A stretch of 28,234 nt of DNA from a virus (IMGVR_UViG_3300029914_000105:1-28234), one strand, 5' to 3'. Positions 6,232 to 28,234 are shown, numbered from the stretch's first letter. Numbers and translations are program-made. The notes: a model not told the origin generated them from the sequence alone.

Positions 6232-6405
6232 CTACGCAAGAAAATTTCCGCGAGCGCGTTGATTTGGTAGCTTTTTCACACCGAAGCCGTTGCGGCGACC
6301 CACCCCGGCCCCCGCCCCGGTCTTTTGGGTCATAGGTCTTATTGTTTCAAAATACATGGTCCTAACGCAATTTTGTTTCAAGGATGGTCACCATGGCCGG
6401 ACTGA

Positions 6406-6420
6406 CGCAACATTATTGCG
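6406..6420 (-). repeat. Repeated element, control region copy 1
   Basis: Minus-strand CGCAATAATGTTGCG, identical over 15 bases to the capsid promoter copy and flanked by CGTTAG on the plus strand like copy 2. Confidence 0.7.
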
Positions 6421-6502
6421 CGTTAGGGGCGCCGCTGGCGGCGGTTTGACCATTGGGCGACCATAGATAGACCCCCGAAAACGAGAACAAACCATGAATA
6501 CG

Positions 6503-6517
6503 CGCAAGATTATTGCG
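6503..6517 (-). repeat. Repeated element, control region copy 2
   Basis: Minus-strand CGCAATAATCTTGCG inside a larger inverted repeat, CGCGCAA-N5-TTGCGCG (6501-6519). Confidence 0.7.
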
Positions 6518-6597
6518 CGTTAGCGGGTGATATGGCTCTGGGTGTCAAAATGAGGGTATGGGATGGATTGTTGCGCAAGCTTTGTAATTTTATTGCG

Positions 6598-6612
6598 CGC
6601 AAGATTATTGCG
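6598..6612 (-). repeat. Repeated element, control region copy 3
   Basis: Minus-strand CGCAATAATCTTGCG, joined to a TTGCGCGCAA palindrome at 6593-6602, the same pairing of element and palindrome as at the capsid promoter. Confidence 0.7.
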
Positions 6613-6675
6613 TGGATGGCGGCAAACGCAATAATCTTTCAATCGAAAATAGGCCAAAGATTGCTCTTGACTTTC

Positions 6676-6681
6676 TATAAT
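6676..6681 (+). promoter_or_regulatory. Early promoter -10 box
   Basis: A perfect TATAAT. The expected transcription start, seven bases on, falls at 6688-6689, exactly the first base of the long hairpin that precedes the first early gene. No consensus -35 lies 16-18 bases upstream (the hexamer there is GCCAAA), so an activator or alternative contacts would be needed. The coincidence of start and hairpin base supports a real promoter. Confidence 0.5.
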
Positions 6682-6688
6682 CCCGTGT

Positions 6689-6780
6689 TAGATTGCCTAG
6701 CTTCGCGCTTGGATGGAGGGGAAGTTACGGTACGCAAGCTTCCCGTCCGTCCCCAATAGCGCAAGCGCTAAGGCAATCTA
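6689..6780 (+). ncRNA. Long three-part hairpin: structured leader or small RNA
   Basis: A 92-nt stem-loop. The outer stem TAGATTGCCT (6689-6698) pairs perfectly with AGGCAATCTA (6771-6780). A bulged middle stem pairs AGC-TT-GCGC-TTGG with CCAA-GCGC-AA-GCT. An inner stem of about 12 bp pairs the strand 6713-6724 with CTTCCCGTCCGT (6739-6750) around a roughly 14-nt loop. There is no U-tract, so it is not a standard terminator. It begins at the predicted transcription start and ends 12 bases before the first early start codon, so it is most simply a structured 5' leader. Alternatives are a free small RNA or an RNase III processing site. It is not a tRNA: there is no cloverleaf and no T-loop motif. 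Confidence 0.55.
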
Positions 6781-6792
6781 GGATGGGAATAA

Positions 6793-6945
6793 GTGAAGAA
6801 AGAAAAAACCCCTAACCCAACGCAGTATCGGATTAGGACTGGCATACGAATTGAAATAGATGCATTGAAAGAAAAGAAGCGTGTCAAACTGGCGCATCAA
6901 AACGCATATCGGGCAGCGATCGGTCTGCCGTTAAAACCGGAGTAG
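6793..6945 (+). CDS. First early gene: 50-aa basic protein
   Basis: A short Lys/Arg-rich protein starting KKEKTPNPTQYRIRTGIRIEI after a GTG start (6793-6795), with AGGATGGG about seven bases upstream. Not recognised. It has a basic N-terminus, a short beta-like stretch (RIRTGIRIEID) and a helical KEKKRVKLAHQNAYRAAIGL segment. As the first gene behind the early promoter and hairpin leader it is a candidate for a host-takeover or regulatory protein, but that is inference from position only. The stop lies five bases before the next start codon. Confidence 0.55.
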   Translation: MKKEKTPNPTQYRIRTGIRIEIDALKEKKRVKLAHQNAYRAAIGLPLKPE

Positions 6946-6950
6946 GGCAA

Positions 6951-7124
6951 ATGCAAGTTGGGATATTTAGTCTTCACATGAGCGAGAAAACAGCGCAGCG
7001 TATTATAGTGCGTCTGCCAATGAACCCAACGTCAAACGACATTCAGCATGTATGGTGCCAGATTATCGCTGAAGATGAAAAAGCAAAGGCTGAAGCGCTT
7101 GCGCAACAATCTATCACAAAATAA
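6951..7124 (+). CDS. Small early protein, 57 aa
   Basis: Starts MQVGIFSLHMSEKTAQRIIVRLPMNP and ends in an Ala/Lys/Glu-rich helix (EDEKAKAEALAQQSITK). Not recognised. The ribosome binding site GGAG overlaps the end of the previous gene, ten bases before the ATG, so the two are probably co-translated. A second Met at codon 10 (MSEKTAQR) is possible but lacks its own ribosome binding site. The shape, a beta-rich N-terminal half and a charged C-terminal helix, would suit a small binding protein or enzyme inhibitor. No stronger statement is supported. Confidence 0.55.
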   Translation: MQVGIFSLHMSEKTAQRIIVRLPMNPTSNDIQHVWCQIIAEDEKAKAEALAQQSITK

Positions 7125-7206
7125 ATTCTGAAACCTCTTGCGCCCGTCCGCGTTTCGTGCTTAGTAGCGTCACCATTTCGAATTAAACCCCACGGAGGGA
7201 AAACGA

Positions 7207-7449
7207 ATGACCATTGATTATCCCAATATCCGCAAGGCAATCCATTGCCCAGTTTGCAAGCTTGATAAGCCCGCCGGCAATATTGTTTGCTGGGCTTGTT
7301 ATGGCCGCTATCTTTTCCGCTTTGGCATTCCCAAGGCAATCACAATCAAGCTGGATTTTGTGGAGGATGTTCTGTCAATCACGCGTGAATGTGCCAATGC
7401 GCGCGGTTACCTTGCCGCCCGCCCGGCTTTGCGCATTGTGAAGTCCTAA
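7207..7449 (+). CDS. Small zinc-ribbon-like protein
   Basis: An 80-aa protein with CPVC near residues 14-17 and CWAC near 28-31, a paired Cys-x-x-Cys arrangement that probably binds one zinc ion. The rest has no recognised domain; the C-terminal half is mixed helix/strand with ITRECANARGYLAARP. The start ATG follows CGGAGGGAAAACGA, a strong ribosome binding site. Its stop overlaps the next start as TAATG, so the downstream gene is coupled. Small zinc-ribbon proteins are common among phage early genes, where they can bind host polymerase or nucleic acids; whether that applies here is unknown. Confidence 0.7.
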   Translation: MTIDYPNIRKAIHCPVCKLDKPAGNIVCWACYGRYLFRFGIPKAITIKLDFVEDVLSITRECANARGYLAARPALRIVKS

Positions 7450-7655
7450 TGAGATACGAAGCAATCCACTTGCGCGGCCACCGTTATGCAGTTCGCCCGG
7501 TTGGCGCCCTTGGCACATGCGGATGGGTTTTGGGCCAAGCATGGACCGTCGCCCATATCAATGCGCGCAGTTCGGCCGAAGCCCTGCTAAAATTCCATTG
7601 TTCGCATTCTGGAAAACCCGCGATAGTGGAGGTCCGCGCCAATGACGCTGTTTGA
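7449..7655 (+). CDS. Hypothetical 68-aa early protein
   Basis: Starts MRYEAIHLRGHRYAVRPVGALG at an ATG overlapping the upstream stop (TAATG). An upstream in-frame start would run 20 codons through the previous gene and is unlikely. The pattern, alternating strands (YEAIHL, RYAVRPV, GWVLGQAW) followed by a helix (ARSSAEALLKFHCSH) and a last strand (PAIVEVRA), suggests a small alpha/beta fold. No family is recognised. Its end overlaps the next gene by 14 bases, consistent with the tightly packed early operon. Confidence 0.65.
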   Translation: MRYEAIHLRGHRYAVRPVGALGTCGWVLGQAWTVAHINARSSAEALLKFHCSHSGKPAIVEVRANDAV

Positions 7656-8052
7656 CCTTAGAACCATGGCGCAATGCGTTCATGCCTTGGCCCCCAATTA
7701 TACCGCGCGCAGTATTGCGCCCAGTACTTTTCCTGAGATAATGGAAGCCCCGGGCATTGTCTGGGACGGCGCCAGCGACGCGACCATATGGGGTGACGCT
7801 CACACTAATCACGCGTTCCGGGCATGGCATGACGCTTGTCACATTGCCGGACAATTCGATTTTACCTTGGCAGGGGAAATTGCGACGTGCGAAGCTCAAA
7901 AGAAAACCCTGTTACGTTTTGCGCCAAGGGCGCCGGCATGGGCTTTGCGGTTATTAGACGCTGAAATAACGGGTCAAGCTTTGCACTATGCGCAGCATGG
8001 CGCCTTTCCGTTGGATCAACGTCGCTTCGTTCTCGAAAGGCTGGCGCCATGA
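7642..8052 (+). CDS. Conserved-looking phage protein with HDxxH motif
   Basis: A 136-aa protein with a distinctive run of polar, possibly metal-binding residues: WHDACHIAGQFDFTLAGE around residues 62-79, then ITGQALHY and FPLDQRRFVLERL near the end. Motifs of this shape (HDxxHI, DFTxxGE, GQxxHY, FPxDQ) recur in short phage proteins of unknown function as I recall them, but I cannot name the family. The His/Asp/Glu pattern hints at a metal site or an enzyme of all-helical fold. It starts inside the end of the previous gene and its TGA overlaps the ATG of the 29-aa membrane peptide (ATGA). Confidence 0.65.
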   Translation: MTLFDLRTMAQCVHALAPNYTARSIAPSTFPEIMEAPGIVWDGASDATIWGDAHTNHAFRAWHDACHIAGQFDFTLAGEIATCEAQKKTLLRFAPRAPAWALRLLDAEITGQALHYAQHGAFPLDQRRFVLERLAP

Positions 8053-8138
8053 CCCTGTTTGAAATTTGCCTTTGCTTTTGGGGCGGCGTCGCCTTTGGCA
8101 TACTTGCTGCAACGGACCACCTATGGAAAAGACAATGA
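8049..8138 (+). CDS. 29-aa single-pass membrane peptide
   Basis: Reads MTLFEICLCFWGGVAFG and continues ILAATDHLWKRQ, a hydrophobic segment of about 18 residues with a charged C-terminus, so it would insert once in the inner membrane. Its ATG overlaps the upstream stop and its TGA overlaps the next ATG, both as ATGA. That makes it part of a chain of coupled genes and argues that it is translated despite its size. Function unknown; tiny early membrane proteins in phages can inhibit host functions or block superinfection, but nothing here tests that. Confidence 0.5.
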   Translation: MTLFEICLCFWGGVAFGILAATDHLWKRQ

Positions 8139-8287
8139 AAACGGCAAACTGGGCTGTTCGCTGGAGGGCGGCAAAATTCCTAGGTGACTATCTCCCCGCT
8201 GATTTTCTGGCCTTGGCATGGCGCATTGCCGCGACGCGCGAGGCGGTAGGTCACGACAAATTAAACCTAGGCCACTTAAGACCGTGA
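8135..8287 (+). CDS. Small basic early protein, 50 aa
   Basis: Starts MKTANWAVRWRAAKFLGDY at an ATG overlapping the upstream TGA, with GGAAAAG just before it. An alternative in-frame ATG at 8123 (MEKTMKTAN) gives 54 residues. The sequence is Trp/Arg/Ala-rich and mostly helical (ADFLALAWRIAATREAVGH), which may indicate an amphipathic, membrane-near or nucleic-acid-binding helix. Not recognised. After it, 42 bases without a gene precede the next ATG. Confidence 0.55.
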   Translation: MKTANWAVRWRAAKFLGDYLPADFLALAWRIAATREAVGHDKLNLGHLRP

Positions 8288-8329
8288 TTGCCGGAAGCAA
8301 TCGAATAAGACTAGAACGGGAATAGGACT

Positions 8330-8737
8330 ATGAGAAAAGACATTCACCAAGCGGCGCCATTGCCCCAGATCATGGCCACGATTTACTTCGGGGCGAATAT
8401 TCCCGGGGGGCGTAAAGCTCAAGGGCTCTTAGACGCGGTAACGGATAACGAGTTTGCGCGTTTCATCCGGGACAGTATCACCCCGCGTTTTCCCGGCTTC
8501 ACGCTTGCCAAGCTGGGGGGCTACTGGAAAGGGGAACCCGAAACAGTCCGCGTTGTGACCATCCTTGCTGAAGACGACAAGTCATTCCGCACAAATATTC
8601 GCATCATGGCGGAACACTATAAGTCAGACTTTGATCAAGAAGCAGTGGCCTACTCCTTTGCGCCGGTCGAGTTTACGCTTAATTGCTGGCCATATGGGCC
8701 GATAGGCGCCTATCACAAAGCAGGCCTTGGATATTGA
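8330..8737 (+). CDS. DUF3574-like early protein
   Basis: A 135-aa protein containing a FGANIPGG strand-turn, then FARFIRDSITPRFPGFTLAKLGGYWKG and a TVRVVTILAEDD strand. A Gly-rich start followed by F-x-x-x-I-TPRFP-G-F/L-T and a G-x-W turn resembles the pattern I recall for DUF3574, a small ferredoxin-like-fold family without a known function. The match is from memory and may be fortuitous. The start ATG follows an AGGA-containing leader (AATAGGACT). It stands alone between short gaps within the early operon. Confidence 0.6.
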   Translation: MRKDIHQAAPLPQIMATIYFGANIPGGRKAQGLLDAVTDNEFARFIRDSITPRFPGFTLAKLGGYWKGEPETVRVVTILAEDDKSFRTNIRIMAEHYKSDFDQEAVAYSFAPVEFTLNCWPYGPIGAYHKAGLGY

Positions 8738-8804
8738 CAGTTTGAGGGGCTTGCGCTATGCAGGCCCCTGATACGGGCAATACCGTCCGAAAAGGAAAAA
8801 TACC

Positions 8805-8978
8805 ATGCTGAGTTATAAGACCCCCGAGACTATCAAAGCGGACAATGCGCGCGCCGCTCAGATAATGAGTGACCAGGGCTATGATGTCCCGCACGGCGTC
8901 GCAACGGCGGCACGGACACTCAAGAAGCCCACGGAAACCATCCCGCAATTTCTGGCGCGTATCGGATACACTCGCTAA
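8805..8978 (+). CDS. Small early protein, 57 aa
   Basis: Starts MLSYKTPETIKADNARAAQIM after AAAAGGAAAAATACC, a good ribosome binding site. Helical N-terminal half, then YDVPHGVATAARTLKKPTETIPQFLARIGYTR. Lys/Arg/Thr-rich with no Cys. Not recognised. It is separated from both neighbours by 36-67 bases and each has its own ribosome binding site, so it is translated independently within the same transcript. Confidence 0.6.
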   Translation: MLSYKTPETIKADNARAAQIMSDQGYDVPHGVATAARTLKKPTETIPQFLARIGYTR

Positions 8979-9014
8979 TCAGTTTCAACGCTAAACCCCT
9001 TGGAGGGATAAGAC

Positions 9015-9203
9015 ATGACGCGCAAAGACTTCGAACTAATAGCCCGCACAATCCTAGACTTGCCAGTGATGACGCAGGAGGAAATAAACCCATCTCGCCG
9101 GATTGCAGTGGCGCGTGAGTTTGCCCATGCCCTACGTCGCACCAATGACCGCTTTGACGAGGAGCGCTTCCTAAAAGCGTGTGGGGTGGTCACCCATGTA
9201 TAG
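9015..9203 (+). CDS. Small RKDFEL-family early protein, copy 1
   Basis: A 62-aa protein beginning MTRKDFELIARTILDL and ending RFDEERFLKACGVVTHV. The gene at 10193-10366 encodes a clear relative (MNRKDFELVARAV at the start, FDPVKFLSQCGV at the end), so this is a paralogous pair within one operon. Short helical proteins with an N-terminal RKDFELIA and a C-terminal F-L-x-x-CG recur in phage genomes as I recall, without known function. The ribosome binding site TTGGAGGGATAAGAC is strong. Its end overlaps the start of the HhH-domain gene. Confidence 0.7.
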   Translation: MTRKDFELIARTILDLPVMTQEEINPSRRIAVAREFAHALRRTNDRFDEERFLKACGVVTHV

Positions 9204-9801
9204 AAAACATTGCCTTGGTTCCATTGCGCTGGCCATGCGCGCGGATATGACCATATTTAGACGCGGGGTTATGTTTGCTGTTTGCAGCATTCGCCAAGCA
9301 ACTATTAATGTGCCAGATCAATTGGGCGCCTTGTTTGAACCAACGGAGGACAATCACGAAAATCCTTTGTTCGGACACAAGTTCGGCGCCTGGGAATATA
9401 TCAACGACGACGCGAAATGCGTGGCAATCTGGCGCGAGCTGACACTGCTTCGGAACAACGTGCATGGTTGCCAAAAGGCAATCATGGAACTGTTGCGCAT
9501 CCCGGGCCTTGGAATTGTCAAAGCTGCATTCGTGGCGCAATTAATGGGCTTCAATGTCGCGTGCTTAGACGCGCGCAATATCAAACGCGAGGGGCGCAAC
9601 CCGCGCGCATATCGCACCGACGGAAAGTCGCCTGAAGCCTTGGCCCCAAAGGTTCGGGCTTACGTCTTAGAGACTTTCGGCCGCGCGGAGGAATATTGGG
9701 ACGCATGGTGCAAAGACGTGGCGCAAGCTTACCATCTTGAGCCCGAGGCGGTTTCGGCCTTGCACCTTTCAATAATCCCATCTAATTATGTTCCGTTCTA
9801 A
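9196..9801 (+). CDS. HhH-containing DNA glycosylase-like protein
   Basis: A 201-aa protein with a helix-hairpin-helix near residues 102-120 (IPGLGIVKAAFVAQLMGFN) followed by CLDARN, so that Asp125 sits where HhH-GPD base-excision glycosylases keep their catalytic Asp. The catalytic Lys of the endonuclease III type (GxGRKTA) is not aligned; a Lys lies one position later. It may thus be a monofunctional glycosylase, an HhH DNA-binding protein or a divergent enzyme. The C-terminal helices (LAPKVRAYVLETFG..EEYWDAWCKDVA) fit the same fold. I start it at ATG 9196, which overlaps the previous stop; an earlier in-frame GTG exists at 9181. Phage glycosylases may act on damaged, host or modified DNA. 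Confidence 0.6.
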   Translation: MYRKHCLGSIALAMRADMTIFRRGVMFAVCSIRQATINVPDQLGALFEPTEDNHENPLFGHKFGAWEYINDDAKCVAIWRELTLLRNNVHGCQKAIMELLRIPGLGIVKAAFVAQLMGFNVACLDARNIKREGRNPRAYRTDGKSPEALAPKVRAYVLETFGRAEEYWDAWCKDVAQAYHLEPEAVSALHLSIIPSNYVPF

Positions 9802-9815
9802 CCAAAGGAAAACCG

Positions 9816-10196
9816 ATGACCATCCGTAAAATTTCGTTGCTACTCCCGACGCATATCAAACCGCAACATTTCGGCCAGACCCCGCTCGCCTATTCGCACA
9901 AGGTCATCTCTAAGTTTGAGACTGCGCTAAAGGCATTGTCGCCGGCGCTAGTCCGGCACCAGCACATTCAAGAGCGGACAGAAGACCCCCAGACCGGCGC
10001 CCAATGGGAACAGCGGGTCCAGTATGACGTATGGGTCAACATGGGCGGCGAAGACCTTGCGCCCTTGGTGCAGCTTGTCCTGTCATCGCTGGACATCAAA
10101 AGCTTCACGGCCTTTTTAGGCGACGACTATCAGCGCATGACGCTCGACGCTTGTGAGGAAATTGTTGCGGGTCTTCACGTCTGGTGCGAAGAATGA
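9816..10196 (+). CDS. Hypothetical 126-aa early protein
   Basis: Starts MTIRKISLLLPTHIKPQHF after AAAGGAAAACCG. It reads as a compact alpha/beta protein: an N-terminal strand (KISLLLP), a long helix around VISKFETALKALSPALVRHQ, two strands with EQRVQYDVWVNMGGEDLAP, and a C-terminal acidic helix ending HVWCEE. No Cys-based metal site or catalytic triad stands out, and no family is recognised. Its TGA overlaps the next ATG, linking it to the second RKDFEL-family gene. Confidence 0.65.
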   Translation: MTIRKISLLLPTHIKPQHFGQTPLAYSHKVISKFETALKALSPALVRHQHIQERTEDPQTGAQWEQRVQYDVWVNMGGEDLAPLVQLVLSSLDIKSFTAFLGDDYQRMTLDACEEIVAGLHVWCEE

Positions 10197-10366
10197 ACCG
10201 GAAAGATTTTGAGCTAGTCGCGCGGGCCGTCAAGTCCATGCGCTTCCTTGAACCGCTGCAACGTGCCAACGTGGCGCACGCGATTGCGTCCGACATTGAG
10301 CGCGCGGAAAATTGTAGCGGGTTTGACCCGGTTAAATTCCTCTCCCAATGCGGGGTGAAAACGTGA
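10193..10366 (+). CDS. Small RKDFEL-family early protein, copy 2
   Basis: A 57-aa protein beginning MNRKDFELVARAV and ending in FDPVKFLSQCGVKT, paralogous to the gene at 9015-9203. Both keep the basic RKDFEL opening, a helical centre rich in Ala/Arg and a Phe-Leu-x-x-Cys-Gly-Val end. Copy 2 is shorter in the middle. ATG 10193 overlaps the previous stop as ATGA; an in-frame upstream start three codons earlier is less likely. Its own TGA overlaps a GTG start of the next gene. Confidence 0.7.
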   Translation: MNRKDFELVARAVKSMRFLEPLQRANVAHAIASDIERAENCSGFDPVKFLSQCGVKT

Positions 10367-10653
10367 GCGTCGCGCCAGAAACTTATGACCTGATCGAGAA
10401 GGCCACGCGGGGTTACCTAGCGGGCCTTGCGCGCGGTGTTCAAATCAGCACAGCGCAGCTTGTGGATGCGCTGTATGACAGCGATATGGAACGAGAGGTC
10501 GCCTTCCGGGCGATCAAAGCCTTGGCCTATGGCCGCCTGGCCGACTGCTGGAGTGCAGGGCCCCCAGTCATGCGATATGGTAAGGAAGTGCGGCCAAAGC
10601 TCTGGCACTCTCCGGTAGTTAAGACGTGTAAGCATTGTGGGGGCGAATTGTGA
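10363..10653 (+). CDS. Early protein with C-terminal CxxCGG zinc knuckle
   Basis: A 96-aa protein from GTG 10363, which overlaps the preceding TGA and has GGGGTGAAAAC just upstream. The alternative ATG at 10348 has no ribosome binding site. The N-terminal part resembles a winged-helix-like unit (TAQLVDALYDSD, then a helix of Ala/Lys residues ending KALAYGRLADC, then RPKLWHSP). The C-terminus, KTCKHCGGEL, is a short Cys-x-x-Cys-Gly-Gly knuckle shared with the 212-aa gene two positions downstream. A DNA- or RNA-binding role is plausible from these features, but unproven. Confidence 0.65.
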   Translation: MSVAPETYDLIEKATRGYLAGLARGVQISTAQLVDALYDSDMEREVAFRAIKALAYGRLADCWSAGPPVMRYGKEVRPKLWHSPVVKTCKHCGGEL

Positions 10654-10820
10654 GAGACGGCAGCACGGAAGCAGCGGTCCGCGAGGATTGCACCAAGGTC
10701 TATGGGGGCGTCTTCGGGCCCTGCCAATACCCGCGTTGCGCTTGCGACCACGCTATCGTTCGCCAGTATGACATGCAGGAAAAGATCAGGGACAAGGCAT
10801 CGAGAGGGGACTATGACTGA
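10650..10820 (+). CDS. Small Cys-rich early protein, 56 aa
   Basis: Begins at GTG 10650, overlapping the previous stop. An in-frame TTG at 10635 would add five residues. The protein holds four Cys, as DC-TK, GPCQYPRC and CACDH, so it may bind zinc. Acidic and basic residues alternate toward the C-terminus (QEKIRDKASRGDYD). Its TGA overlaps the next ATG. Not recognised, and too short for a confident domain call. Confidence 0.5.
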   Translation: MRDGSTEAAVREDCTKVYGGVFGPCQYPRCACDHAIVRQYDMQEKIRDKASRGDYD

Positions 10821-11458
10821 TGAAACGCACTCATGAAGTGGCCGCTTCCTTCGGTTTTTCGCCCGCTGCATGGCTTGCTATATCAAAGCAAGAACGCGCT
10901 AAAATGTATCAGCGCCAGTATAGGCCTCGCCGTCATAAACCTTATACTCGTGAAGAAGCCCTTGAAAGAAGACGTGCCACATATGAAAAGGTGAACCTTG
11001 CGCGGCGTGGAACTTATGACAAAAACGACCCTAAAATGAAAGCGAAAGTGGTGAGACAAAAAGAAACGTATCGTCAAAAACAGCTATTAAATGCGGCTGC
11101 TAATGATGCCGCGCTAGATGCAGCTATAGAAAATGCGGAGAAGAAAAAGCAACTAAAAATTCTCATGAAGGCTGATCCCGGTTTAAGAAAACAGATTTTA
11201 AAAGAGCGAGCGAGAGAGCGGAAGCGCGCCTTTCTCAAGACCGCGAAAGGCCGGGCGCAGCACCAAGCCAGGAAGAAAAAAAGGATCAAAGCAATTTTAG
11301 CGGACCCCGTTAAAGGCACCATTTATCGAGCAGCACGAGCCGCTAACAAAAGGGCAAGAACGGCACTTTTAAAACAGTGTCCGCATTGCGGTGGAGAAGT
11401 CACAGTAGACAGTTGGAAAAGGAAAATTGAACATGATAGACTACAAAACAGTCGCTAA
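10820..11458 (+). CDS. Lysine/arginine-rich early protein with zinc knuckle
   Basis: A 212-aa, very basic, largely helical protein. The N-terminus is MKRTHEVAASFGFSPAAW, followed by Arg/Lys/Tyr repeats (ERRRATYEK, ARRGTYDK, RQKETYRQK), a helical Ala/Lys region and dense KKK/RKR patches. Its end, CPHCGGEVTVDSW, matches the knuckle of the gene at 10363. The composition suggests nucleic acid binding. The DNA here is visibly more AT-rich than the neighbouring replication genes and uses AAA/AAT/TTA codons more often, which points to separate ancestry. HNH or intron endonuclease families were considered, but no HNH catalytic motif is visible. Confidence 0.6.
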   Translation: MKRTHEVAASFGFSPAAWLAISKQERAKMYQRQYRPRRHKPYTREEALERRRATYEKVNLARRGTYDKNDPKMKAKVVRQKETYRQKQLLNAAANDAALDAAIENAEKKKQLKILMKADPGLRKQILKERARERKRAFLKTAKGRAQHQARKKKRIKAILADPVKGTIYRAARAANKRARTALLKQCPHCGGEVTVDSWKRKIEHDRLQNSR

Positions 11459-11876
11459 AAAGTATCTTCGAGAAGAACCTAATAATCCCATTGCTGCTGC
11501 CAAACTAATGGCTACGGAAGCCAAAGGTGAGCTACGGGACCATCTTGTTATTTTGGGGGCTCAACAAGTCATCCGAAATTATTTAACAAGCGGGCGGAAT
11601 AGTTCTTCAAATCCAGTTCTACCTCATGAGGCTGCTCGTGCCGTGCGTGCGCGCTGGATGGACGAATATCGTTTATTTGATGGGACTGTCCCGCTTGCCA
11701 AGGCAACGGATAAAGACCTAGCCGACAGCGCCCGCAAACATGACGCGCAAGCGGCGGGCCATAATCGCACTGCCGCCTTCGAGCGCGCAGTTGCAGAACG
11801 CCTTGTTAAAACTGGCAAGACAGTGGAACAGGTTTTTTCAGACGAAACCTTGAAGAAGCTCAAGGCCGAACTTTAA
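11433..11876 (+). CDS. Last early-operon gene, 147-aa helical protein
   Basis: Starts MIDYKTVAKKYLREEPNNP at ATG 11433, eleven bases after AAGGAAAA. A TTG two codons upstream is possible. The start overlaps the end of the basic 212-aa gene. The protein is helical and charged, with GELRDHLVILGAQQVIRNYL in the first half, then RAVRARWMDEYRLFDG and a C-terminal EQVFSDETLKKLKAEL. Not recognised. It ends 21 bases before a strong plus-strand terminator and overlaps the 3' end of the convergent primase gene by 17 bases, so it closes the early transcript. Confidence 0.65.
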   Translation: MIDYKTVAKKYLREEPNNPIAAAKLMATEAKGELRDHLVILGAQQVIRNYLTSGRNSSSNPVLPHEAARAVRARWMDEYRLFDGTVPLAKATDKDLADSARKHDAQAAGHNRTAAFERAVAERLVKTGKTVEQVFSDETLKKLKAEL

Positions 11877-13737
11877 GCCGCCACATGCGCCCTTCGCCTG
11901 TCCCCTCGCATAGGGGGGACAGGTTATTCTTTTTCACGGCGATGGTCAGGGCGCGTTTTCGCATTCCAAGGAACTGAGCATAAGCCTCGTCCGTTTCATC
12001 GGGGCGTTGCCGGCACATAAGCGTGAGTAGCGCATGATTGGTGAGGGCATGATCGGGATTGAGAGCCAGGACCGACGCGATATTGGCGGCGGAGAACTCG
12101 TCGTTCTCGTCGGTCAAGATCGCCGCTTCCTTGGCGCTGGCGGGAATGAAGGCGAGGCCTTCCCCGTAATTGTGACCCTGATAGAGGAACGGCGCCTCAC
12201 GCTCCTCCGAGGTCTTCTGCTTCTGCACCCACATGCGGACCAGCTTGGCGTCTTTATCCGCGTCAATCCGCAGGACGGTATCGCAGCCCGCGTAAAGAGC
12301 GGAGGAACCGCGTGGCCCCTTCCCGTCGTTGGGCGTATGGTGCACCAGCACGACGGCGCATTTGAACGCCTGCTTGATTTTGTCGGCGACGCGGATGAAT
12401 TGCGCCATCTCACTTGCGCTGTTCTCCTCCAGGCCGACCAGGGCGCGGTTCAAGGTGTCAAGGAAGATGATACCCACGTCCTTGCCAGTCGCCTCAGCCT
12501 TCGCCGCGATGGATGCGCTGAAGGCCTTGTAATCGTCTTCGCTCTCGGTCCAGGCGGGCATATCGCCGGTCATGAAGAACGGGACTTCCCCCTCGACGCC
12601 ATAGGCAAGCTTCCAGGCCGGGAAGTCCTTGGCCGCCATGCGGGAGATGCCCTCGGCGGCGACGTAGAACGCGCATTTGCCGGCCAGGGCCACGTCACCG
12701 CCCAGTTTCATGGCGATGAAACTTTTGTAATGTCCCGAGGGGCCATAGAGCATGTTGACGGAATTGGTCGTGAAAATCTCGTCCAGGAGCCACACAGGGG
12801 GCGGCATATGGCGAAACTCGTCCTCCGCCATCCAGTGGAAGCGAGCGTGTTCTGCCGGCTCAGGAGCCGGCTGGAGCCGGGCCTCGTCCCGCAGTCTGTC
12901 GAGGATGGCGGGAGGGACCGCCTCCGTCACCGGCAGAACAGCCCACGCCCCTGCGTCGTTTTGGGAATAGAGAGCGGCGTTGGCGACTTTACCAGCCAGC
13001 TCGTCTATGTCCCAAGGCGGAACGCAGTGGCAATTCCAAAATGTGTCGATCAGTTCGGTCGCGCGGCCTTCGGAGAGGCCAAGGTTCAGGACTTCGGCGC
13101 AGACCTGATAGGTCCGAACGTCACCGCCTTGGCCCTGCCGAGCAACGTCGTCGCGCTCAACGTAATCAAGAAGCAGTCTCCTTGCTCGTCCAATCGCGCT
13201 GTCGCTGTCCAAGTCAGTTCCGGCGACAGCTTTAGTTGCTTCGCGAGCGCGTCCAGCATCTTGGGACACGTAATCGGGAAGCTCTGCGATGTCGCGGTCT
13301 TCGGTAAGCTTATAAGATTTTCCATTGACCTCTCCAGAAATTACAATGTAGCCGTTCTGCCCGCGGGTGTCCAGCTTTGGTCCGAGCTTGCTGACGCTAT
13401 TGGGGCAGAGGCAGAAATCGTCGCGGAAGATCAGGTGGCGTCCGCCGCGCGGCGTCTCATGTTCGCGCGTAAGCGGCAGGGGGCCACGCTCCAATTCATA
13501 ACGGAGCAGACTATCTTCGCCGACTGGGGGGTCAATATCGACAACGGCGAGGCCGGACGGCCCGAGTGCGACAGCCCAGTTGCAGCCAGGGTGATCTATA
13601 GCCCACTGTTCTATAACTCGCGGATCGTCGGTGGCGCGCGCGGGCCAATCCTTAAAGCCCGCAACCGGCGTTTTGGCGCCGGGGGCACATGGAAAGATTT
13701 TCCACCCTTTGGGGAATGTTGAATTTTCTTGTTGCAT
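11860..13737 (-). CDS. Primase-polymerase fused to RepA-like helicase
   Basis: Likely primes and unwinds at the replication fork. The N-terminal half is an archaeo-eukaryotic prim-pol-type domain: AVVDIDPP with D67 and D69 for metals, TPRGGRHLIF with H101, then DTRGQNGYIVISGEVNGKSY near 123-142. The C-terminal half is a RecA-like ATPase of the RepA kind: Walker A GPSGHYKS at 332-339, where an aromatic replaces the usual Gly before Lys; Walker B IIFLDT with D427; and VLVHHTPNDGKGPRGSSAL near 463-480 as the sensor region. A wHTH-like tail ends RMWRLKVRP. The 625-aa length fits such fusions. It is the only gene in 6793-25629 on the minus strand, and its 3' coding region contains the terminator of the convergent early operon. 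Confidence 0.88.
   Translation of the reverse strand: MQQENSTFPKGWKIFPCAPGAKTPVAGFKDWPARATDDPRVIEQWAIDHPGCNWAVALGPSGLAVVDIDPPVGEDSLLRYELERGPLPLTREHETPRGGRHLIFRDDFCLCPNSVSKLGPKLDTRGQNGYIVISGEVNGKSYKLTEDRDIAELPDYVSQDAGRAREATKAVAGTDLDSDSAIGRARRLLLDYVERDDVARQGQGGDVRTYQVCAEVLNLGLSEGRATELIDTFWNCHCVPPWDIDELAGKVANAALYSQNDAGAWAVLPVTEAVPPAILDRLRDEARLQPAPEPAEHARFHWMAEDEFRHMPPPVWLLDEIFTTNSVNMLYGPSGHYKSFIAMKLGGDVALAGKCAFYVAAEGISRMAAKDFPAWKLAYGVEGEVPFFMTGDMPAWTESEDDYKAFSASIAAKAEATGKDVGIIFLDTLNRALVGLEENSASEMAQFIRVADKIKQAFKCAVVLVHHTPNDGKGPRGSSALYAGCDTVLRIDADKDAKLVRMWVQKQKTSEEREAPFLYQGHNYGEGLAFIPASAKEAAILTDENDEFSAANIASVLALNPDHALTNHALLTLMCRQRPDETDEAYAQFLGMRKRALTIAVKKNNLSPLCEGTGEGRMWRLKVRP
11897..11934 (+). terminator. 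Early-operon terminator inside the primase coding region
   Basis: Plus strand: CCTGTCCCC (11897-11905) pairs with GGGGACAGG (11915-11923) around a 9-nt loop, followed by TTATTCTTTTT (11924-11934). It lies 21 bases after the last early stop and so ends early transcription. The same bases encode residues near the C-terminus of the minus-strand primase-helicase (LSPLCEGTGEGR region). Confidence 0.8.
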
Positions 13738-23998: not shown

Positions 23999-24509
23999 TT
24001 TCGCCGGCCGCGTCACCGATCACGACAAGGAGATCGCGTCTCAGTATATCGGCTCTCTGTATCGGCCGCCCGACCTAGTGATCGCGCCTAAAGGCTATGG
24101 CGAATATCTGTTCCGCTGGTATGTCATTCCGCGGAACAGGGAGGCGAATGTCTATTTCCATATCCAGACGCAGAGCGACCCCGAGCGGCCCCTGCATGAC
24201 CATCCCTGGGACAACACCAGCGTCATTTTGTCGGGCGGCTATGATGAAATTATAGACACCGAACCAGAGAGTATTATGGAAGGCCAGTGTTATACCGTGC
24301 AGCGTAATAAGGGCGACGTGATCCATCGGCCGGCTACCTGGGCGCATCGTCTGCTCTTGCCACTTTATCACCCCTACACCATGACCCTGTTCACGACGGG
24401 ACCGAAGGTTCGCAAGTGGGGCTTCTGGAAGAATGGAAAGTTCAAGCCCTATGAGGAAGTCACGGTCGAGGCGGCCGGCAAGTCCACATGGAAAGGGAGC
24501 ATGGAATGA
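23979..24509 (+). CDS. Cupin-fold phage protein
   Basis: A 176-aa protein with a cupin-like barrel: LHDHPWDNTSVILSGGYDE (H73, H75 and later Glu90) and KGDVIHRPATWAHRLLLP with H123, giving a plausible metal-binding set, then TLFTTGPKVRKWGFW. The HDHPWD and GxxxRxWGF motifs recur in phage cupins of unknown reaction. Possible roles are a metal-dependent oxygenase or an isomerase acting on a nucleotide or sugar. I start at ATG 23979, nine bases after GGAG; an in-frame ATG at 23967 adds four residues. It forms a coupled set with the next two genes (ATGA overlaps), suggesting a shared pathway. Confidence 0.75.
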   Translation: MPNPPFDFAGRVTDHDKEIASQYIGSLYRPPDLVIAPKGYGEYLFRWYVIPRNREANVYFHIQTQSDPERPLHDHPWDNTSVILSGGYDEIIDTEPESIMEGQCYTVQRNKGDVIHRPATWAHRLLLPLYHPYTMTLFTTGPKVRKWGFWKNGKFKPYEEVTVEAAGKSTWKGSME

Positions 24510-24802
24510 ATGCGAGCGAAGAACGAAAGGCGACGCCGATCTGGAGTGGCGTTCTGCGTTATTTCCCCGACGCCATTGCGGCTGTCGCCCGCCTGTCCAA
24601 GCGCGGCAACGACAAGCACAATCCCGGCGAGCCGCTGCATTGGGCGCGGGAGAAATCGAACGACCATGGCGACTGCATCCTGCGGCACCAGATGGAGCCG
24701 GACGCCATTGACGAGGACACTGGTGAGCTTCATGCCGTAGCCGTCGCATGGAGAGCCCTCGCCCAGCTTCAACTGCTGGAAGAAAAAAGGTTAGGCAAAT
24801 GA
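24506..24802 (+). CDS. dATP/dGTP diphosphohydrolase N-terminal-like protein
   Basis: A 98-aa protein matching the domain I know as dATP/dGTP diphosphohydrolase N-terminal (formerly DUF5664): SEERKATPIWSGVLRYFPDA, SKRGNDKHNPGEPLHWAREK, NDHGDCILRH, and HAVAVAWRALAQLQL. The conserved G-N-x-x-HNPG, LHW and DH..D..LRH residues are present. The family contributes to nucleotide-pool control, including in phages with altered purines, but many copies stand alone with untested activity. Start ATG 24506 overlaps the cupin stop. Only this single domain is encoded here. Confidence 0.8.
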   Translation: MNASEERKATPIWSGVLRYFPDAIAAVARLSKRGNDKHNPGEPLHWAREKSNDHGDCILRHQMEPDAIDEDTGELHAVAVAWRALAQLQLLEEKRLGK

Positions 24803-27499: not shown

Positions 27500-28234
27500 T
27501 TATGATAAGGGGTAGATGCACATGCCATAAAGTGTGGCCCCAGAAAGGGTTGCGTTTTGTGTAGGTGACCCCGTGTTGGTTTGAATAGCAAAAGTTGTGT
27601 TGTTCGCTGTTGGGATACATTGCGTGGCATAGGTCGCAACTGTTGTGACCGTAAGGAAACCTTGTCGTGCTGATTGCTTATTGGCTACGGTTGCTGGTAG
27701 GCCACCGATAAGCGAGTTTGCTCCGTTGGTGTTCGTCGGATACTGAAGGCTGAAATAAGCAAACACCATGTTGCCAATGATAGTGTAACTGCCTGACGCC
27801 GCAGGAAACGACAAACCGGCGCCGCTACTATCAACGGGGGTCCAATTCCCGGTAGTCTGCGTGACGCCCGGTCCGGTTGCGCCAGTAGGCCCCGTAGGCC
27901 CAGTGCCGCCTGTTGCGCCAGTAGACCCAGTAGGCCCCGTAGGCCCCGTAGGCCCCGTAGGCCCCGTAGGCCCCGCGGGCCCAGTAGGCCCAGTGGGCCC
28001 AGTAGGCCCAGTGGGCCCAGTAGGCCCGGCGGGCCCAGTAGACCCCGCGGGCCCAGTAGACCCAGTAGGCCCGGTGGGCCCCGTAGGCCCCGCGGGCCCA
28101 GTAGACCCAGTAGACCCAGTAGGCCCGGTTGCGCCAGTAGACCCAGTAGGCCCCGCGGGCCCAGTAGACCCAGTATACCCAGTAGGCCCGGTTGCGCCAG
28201 TAGACCCAGTAGGCCCCGTAGGCCCCGTAGACCC
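27500..28234 (-). CDS. Collagen-like tail fibre, C-terminal part (runs off right edge)
   Basis: The frame is open from the right edge to the stop at 27502-27500, giving 244 residues. From 28234 down to about 27870 it encodes around 40 consecutive Gly-X-Y triplets, mostly GPT, GST, GPA and GAT with one GYT, forming a collagen-like triple helix. A beta-rich C-terminal domain follows: [20 protein letters not shown], then [21 protein letters not shown] and an end in GMCIYPLS, as seen at the tips of other trimeric fibres. It likely forms a host-contacting appendage. The start lies outside the window. Thr in the Y position could carry sugar, as in some bacterial collagen-like proteins. Confidence 0.82.
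27870..28234 (-). repeat. Tandem 9-bp Gly-X-Y coding repeats
   Basis: Degenerate 9-base units such as CCCGTAGGC and CCAGTAGGC repeat without interruption up to the window end, in frame with the tail fibre. Such DNA can change length by slippage and can be collapsed in assembly. Confidence 0.9.

Follow-up and report, generated by a model that had tools for sequence, protein, structure and literature searches.

The DNA analysed here, the IMG/VR sequence IMGVR_UViG_3300029914_000105 (28,234 bases, referred to in its entirety as the window), is of podovirus origin and encodes a portal of the podovirus head-tail connector type (Head-tail_con, PF12236, E 1.2e-89). Between positions 6793 and 11876 it carries 17 consecutive plus-strand open reading frames (ORFs), g01 to g17, which occupy 95.2% of the interval and which we interpret as a probable early operon. 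Upstream of this block lie a cluster of putative operators and a candidate promoter partly embedded in a long hairpin, and an intrinsic terminator follows the last gene. The features are as follows (aa, amino acids; nt, nucleotides).

6406..6612, no strand assigned: putative operator cluster, three perfect CGCAA-N5-TTGCG palindromes (6406-6420, 6503-6517, 6598-6612)
6667..6694, plus: candidate sigma-70-type promoter TTGACT-16-(TGT)TAGATT, consensus type, similar arrangement in relatives
6681..6788, plus: imperfect hairpin, 42 pairs, −62.9 kcal/mol, z −8.4; holds the −10 and ends 4 nt before g01
6793..6945, plus: g01, 50 aa, GTG start, lineage-specific
6951..7124, plus: g02, 57 aa, lineage-specific, weak coding score
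7207..7449, plus: g03, 80 aa, CxxC...CxxC zinc-ribbon-like, lineage-specific
7449..7655, plus: g04, 68 aa, lineage-specific
7642..8052, plus: g05, 136 aa, phrog_7806, RAWHDxxH...GE family
8049..8138, plus: g06, 29 aa, membrane-type peptide
8135..8287, plus: g07, 50 aa, lineage-specific
8330..8737, plus: g08, 135 aa, DUF3574
8805..8978, plus: g09, 57 aa, lineage-specific
9015..9203, plus: g10, 62 aa, MTRKDFELIA family, paralogue of g13
9196..9801, plus: g11, 201 aa, HhH-GPD-like viral family
9816..10196, plus: g12, 126 aa, lineage-specific
10193..10366, plus: g13, 57 aa, paralogue of g10 (one hidden Markov model (HMM) family)
10363..10653, plus: g14, 96 aa, C-terminal CxxC; common to L011, L108, L140, L144 and L209
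10650..10820, plus: g15, 56 aa, Cys-rich, lineage-specific
10820..11458, plus: g16, 212 aa, Lys/Arg-rich, C-terminal CPHCGG zinc ribbon, lineage-specific
11433..11876, plus: g17, 147 aa, lineage-specific; 17-bp tail-to-tail overlap with the primase gene
11896..11924, plus: intrinsic terminator, 12-bp stem then TATTCTTTTT, in the final codons of the convergent primase gene

Ten of the 16 junctions between ORFs overlap (ATGA, GTGA, TAATG, TGATG or longer) and seven of the 17 ORFs are shorter than 60 codons, features already described in a sequence-only reading of the window; that reading had also placed the block correctly, but counted 16 genes in the run where we find 17 ORFs. Shine-Dalgarno sequences precede many of the starts, and the annotated frame has the best codon score of the six frames for most ORFs, with weak or tied scores for g02, g06, g10 and g16. 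When g07 is compared with its counterpart in L002, a second contig of the same virus (99.87% identity), six of the seven differences are synonymous, a purifying pattern which supports g07 as coding. L002 and L003 were otherwise discarded as independent evidence because they represent the same virus. The zinc-ribbon-like protein (g03), membrane-type peptide (g06), HhH protein (g11) and paralogous pair (g10 and g13) named earlier are borne out, whereas the zinc knuckle is suggested by nothing beyond the cysteines of g15. The dedicated terminator also looks real by virtue of its 12-bp stem, although it falls within the 3' end of the primase gene, which is convergent; the region has no more terminator-like sites than shuffled sequences do, and this one is exceptional by stem strength. 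Similar plus-strand terminators stand near the same place in the related contigs L122 and L140 and are absent from five other relatives tested.

Several observations make early expression of the block well supported. The candidate host-type sigma-70 promoter ahead of g01 has counterparts in L011 and L012 (TTGACT/A-17-TATGTT) and in L094 (TTGACT-17-TACGTT), with looser ones in L091, L093 and L108. A search for a T7-type RNA polymerase (PF00940) found none in G000, G001, G002, G005, G006 and G010, records that are not all complete, in a search not aimed at virion RNA polymerases; both positive controls, the Autographiviridae phages UFJF_PfSW6 and Percy, were detected. The six records thus show no single-subunit RNA polymerase gene, the gene by which Autographiviridae are recognised. 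In UFJF_PfSW6 (Studiervirinae) a homologue of g05 occupies the gene 4 position, before the RNA polymerase gene, others lie within the left-end blocks of Percy and DoCa2, and a g08 homologue is at the left end of S-CBP2. Position, a recurring promoter of sigma-70 type, the T7-type polymerase search in relatives and the placement of g05 and g08 homologues in early left ends of Autographiviridae all agree with the word "early" in the sequence-only reading. Class I early regions of T7-type phages (UFJF_PfSW6, Percyvirus, Pradovirus) are likewise left-end blocks in which many small genes of unknown function come before those for replication; our block shares the g05 family with phages of these types and the g08 family with cyanopodoviruses. 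Unlike those regions, it is accompanied by no T7-type RNA polymerase that we could find, the structural genes are divergent on the opposite strand, the primase is convergent and the gene content is otherwise distinct.

The setting of the block is conserved. Three related records of 43.1-44.6 kb (G001, G002, G006) have, on the minus strand, scaffold, portal, terL and terS, then the plus-strand block, then a convergent Prim-Pol/AAA primase-helicase followed by SprT-like, SNF2, exonuclease, single-stranded DNA-binding protein and PolA genes, the last with 50-56% identity in five relatives; because these records share its gene order, the window probably represents about two thirds of a genome. The slot between terS (minus) and primase (minus) holds an early plus-strand block in contigs including L011, L016, L091, L122 and L140 and is partly kept in L010, L012-L014, L093, L094, L104, L108, L127 and L144, several of which are short fragments. 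The order portal, terL, terS (minus), control region, g05, g10, g08, g14, g11 (plus), primase (minus) recurs whole or in part in many contigs, and the other genes vary. A scan with terL for further members of the clade returned mainly other phages, with early-family genes in three of 74. The whole block had no match among phages in a DNA-level search, no tRNA genes were found, and an Rfam search gave no match.

Iterated HMM searches of the fetched loci yielded relatives for g05, g08, g10/g13, g11 and g14 only; the remaining 11 of the 17 ORFs were seen in this virus alone, and 13 small proteins searched as a concatenate by tblastn against phages had no match. Such turnover fits host-interaction genes. 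It could also be taken to mean that the ORFs are relics which serve little purpose and could be dispensed with, since eleven have no relative outside this virus and two score poorly for coding; we hold this to be very improbable, as it is at odds with the Shine-Dalgarno sequences before many starts, the ten overlapping junctions, the 95% coverage, the purifying pattern of g07 and the conservation of g05, g08, g10, g11 and g14.

The description of the proteins as mostly unknown is accurate, a Pfam name being available for g08 alone (DUF3574, E 3.3e-15, 56.2 bits against a Pfam cut-off of 25). The notion that DUF3574 is universal in the clade was dropped, G006 alone among five relatives giving a match, and that below the cut-off. 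Literature searches on DUF3574 in phages and on aGPT-PPlase-like enzymes returned nothing relevant. The g05 family (phrog_7806) numbers 58 viral loci, and its matches in BFVD include proteins of Percy, LKA1, Scott and AS12; residues A58, R60, A61, W62, H63, D64 and H67 are invariant and E79 nearly so, which suggests a metal or ligand site. Structure prediction, which the earlier reading had proposed as a check, gave a confident model for g05 (predicted local distance difference test score, pLDDT, 94.8) with no match in the PDB by profile or by fold. In L129 (4578-5036) and L128 a single ORF contains both the g05 domain and the WxxWC motif from the C terminus of g11, apparently the product of a deletion that fused adjacent genes.

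The block member present in most relatives is g11. At least 494 related loci were found in IMG/VR with two patterns, five named phages (six records) among 50,697 carry it, and a scan of 84,980 bacterial and archaeal genomes, which relies on short peptide patterns, gave three loci, two of them in metagenome-assembled genomes; the family thus appears to be mainly viral. No Pfam, PHROG or NCBIfam family fits it, no Pfam HhH-GPD match exceeds the cut-off and a literature search found nothing relevant, so that an abundant viral family is unnamed in the libraries searched. Two separate lines of evidence, from sequence and from predicted structure, nevertheless point to a remote relation with the HhH-GPD superfamily. 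First, a profile of 31 sequences matches the Ogg structures 9o00-9o03 (E 0.001-0.02); in it the HhH motif P-x-LG-x-VK has invariant P103, G106, V108 and K109, and D125, which follows the motif and is also invariant, aligns with the catalytic Asp of 8-oxoguanine glycosylase (E 0.001). Second, the AlphaFold model (pLDDT 95.6) has as its top three Foldseek hits MjOgg (probability 0.98), an AlkA-like protein (0.89) and EndoIII (0.66). The assignment is remote because the best Foldseek E value is 0.16 and the template-modelling score at most 0.49. With archaeal-type Ogg proteins (MjOgg, PDB 3fhf; 9o00-9o03) g11 shares the HhH motif, the aligned catalytic Asp and, tentatively, an all-helical fold; it differs from them in having Val108 at the position of the catalytic Lys, in a unique C-terminal WxxWCxxVA...S..H motif and in being almost only viral. 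Since the position of the apurinic/apyrimidinic (AP) lyase Lys of bifunctional members is taken by Val108 (the adjoining Lys109 is also invariant), AP-lyase activity is not expected, and g11 likely excises or recognises an altered base without that chemistry. It looks more like a protein that handles DNA bases than a classic inhibitor, and with its glycosylase-like fold it would be predicted to act on the bases of DNA, which are also the substrate in restriction and base-modification warfare. At g11 loci outside the clade (L017-L087) six of 87 neighbouring proteins are C5-cytosine methylases (PF00145), which also occur in CRP-9; a functional link is possible.

Seen from g11, the block might instead be mainly a DNA-metabolism (middle) cluster in which g11 serves repair or base processing for replication and the small ORFs assist replication instead of acting against the host. 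In ParKuw1 and DSS3_VP1 g11 adjoins DnaB helicase or ribonucleotide reductase genes, and primase, SprT-like, SNF2, exonuclease and PolA genes come directly after the block. However, the g05 and g08 homologues of named phages stand in left-end early blocks apart from replication genes, the replication genes of the window lie past the terminator and the convergent primase, and replication genes would not be expected to turn over as 11 of the 17 ORFs do; we consider this alternative unlikely.

We favour, with a probability of roughly 0.7, the view that the block is the early operon of a group of podoviruses with ~44-kb records and no phage RNA polymerase that we could detect, that it is driven by host sigma-70 and that its gene set has two layers. 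Host sigma-70 RNA polymerase would start at TTGACT-16-TAGATT, as sequence and recurrence in relatives suggest, and the message would open with the long hairpin leader, cross the 17 overlapping genes and end at the terminator. Its two layers would be five recurring families (g05, g08, g10/g13, g14 and g11) and 11 small ORFs of this virus alone, with g11 most likely handling DNA bases through its HhH-GPD fold, by base excision or altered-base recognition, and the palindromic operators would probably let a regulator shut the operon off or switch between it and the divergent terS/terL operon. What was a list of unknown ORFs thereby becomes a defined early module whose core is conserved and which can be tested gene by gene. 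Takeover or anti-defence roles for its members are plausible from position and turnover. Several points count against this interpretation. PADLOC, run on ten proteins (nine from the block), found nothing convincing, and no known defence or counter-defence family was matched in PADLOC or with the Pfam/NCBIfam Lar models; the sole anti-restriction echo is a match of g16 to the Lar zinc ribbon (E 0.04-0.13), far below the cut-off. For 11 ORFs the support consists solely of reading frame, spacing and codon statistics, with poor scores for g02 and g16, and the structural match of g11 is as weak as stated above. Finally, the window and most of its relatives are fragments, so a missing gene is no proof of absence.

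The hairpin before g01 is about 105 nt long, and its dyad includes the −10 but not the −35. This geometry recurs in seven relatives (L011, L012, L091, L093, L104, L108 and L209); in the first six a hairpin of similar size runs from 12-19 nt past a −35-like element, only TAGACT-like in L104, to just before a start codon. Comparable hairpins with weaker promoter matches precede g14 in L140 and L144. BLAST detects almost no sequence similarity among the recurring hairpins, and a MAFFT alignment was too poor for covariation counts. Hairpins were scored by shuffle z-scores, earlier lax criteria having given 2201 hits of no use, and the 110-nt scan window limits their length, stems extending in larger windows. 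TTGAC stands at −12 to −19 in seven of 50 hairpins with z ≤ −4 against two of 495 others (binomial P 2e-7, in a test framed after the pattern had been seen and including the clade members that prompted it).

RNase III processing hairpins stand ahead of the T7 early genes, and they too are long imperfect stems directly before the first early gene, but the stem described here takes in the −10 and opens before the point where transcription is predicted to start. The hairpin may act at the RNA level, in 5'-end protection or RNase III processing; a purely RNA role leaves the outer stem unexplained because the predicted start is ~20 nt inside the dyad. Counts of G-U pairs on the two strands (24 versus 16) did not separate an RNA from a DNA role. 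Promoter and hairpin also coincide in the hairpin promoters of the phage N4 virion RNA polymerase (PMC4496689) and in F-plasmid Frpo (PMC9849209), which likewise drive early genes, but the present hairpin extends over ~105 nt and leaves the −35 outside its dyad. We found no description of such a promoter-embedded regulatory element, which together with the g11 family is the most unusual feature of the region. A bolder proposal, which we regard as tentative and rather doubtful, is that it represents a promoter type not described before, with a ~105-nt dyad that is conserved across a phage group in structure rather than sequence and encloses the −10 and the start, and in which hairpin extrusion or a nascent RNA hairpin gates or stabilises early transcription, and that g11 in addition founds a virus-only HhH-GPD class without the lyase Lys.

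The putative operators lie upstream of the early promoter, and half-matching sites are found at 6567 and 6627. Three copies of CGCAA-N5-TTGCG occupy the same place in G001 and G002, against ~0.04 expected per genome, with one further copy elsewhere in G001 and none in G002. L094 also has three copies and L016 three copies of a different palindrome, numbers rarely or never reached by dinucleotide shuffles. In the window a fourth copy, at 834-848, covers part of the −10 of a candidate minus-strand promoter, TTGACA-17-TAATGT (820-900), which precedes the apparent major capsid gene (minus strand, start about 697). This suggests that late genes may come under the same regulator; the arrangement was not seen in G001 or G002. 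Three spaced palindromes upstream of the promoter in four phages, together with the fourth copy on the capsid-gene promoter, could also be expected of a temperate phage whose control region is a lysogeny switch and whose block is the lytic early operon under a CI-like repressor. No tyrosine integrase was found in six records, however (serine integrases, transposition and plasmid-like prophages fell outside that search), and no repressor gene was recognised, and we judge a lysogeny switch quite improbable.

A CCACCCCGGTCTTTT-like element adjoins terS at 6298-6330 of the window and is also present in L011, L016, L094 and L144; it is possibly a packaging site or a late promoter. At its very end (1-88) the contig L140 has a near-perfect palindrome (z −19.7) that is probably an assembly artefact. 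Positions 24500-24799 of the window encode a dATP/dGTP diphosphohydrolase N-terminal domain (PF18909, E 1.6e-10); in some phages this family is associated with altered nucleotide pools. GGCCC-rich repeats at 27850-28100 resemble, on the minus strand, the collagen-type Gly-x-y repeats of tail fibres.

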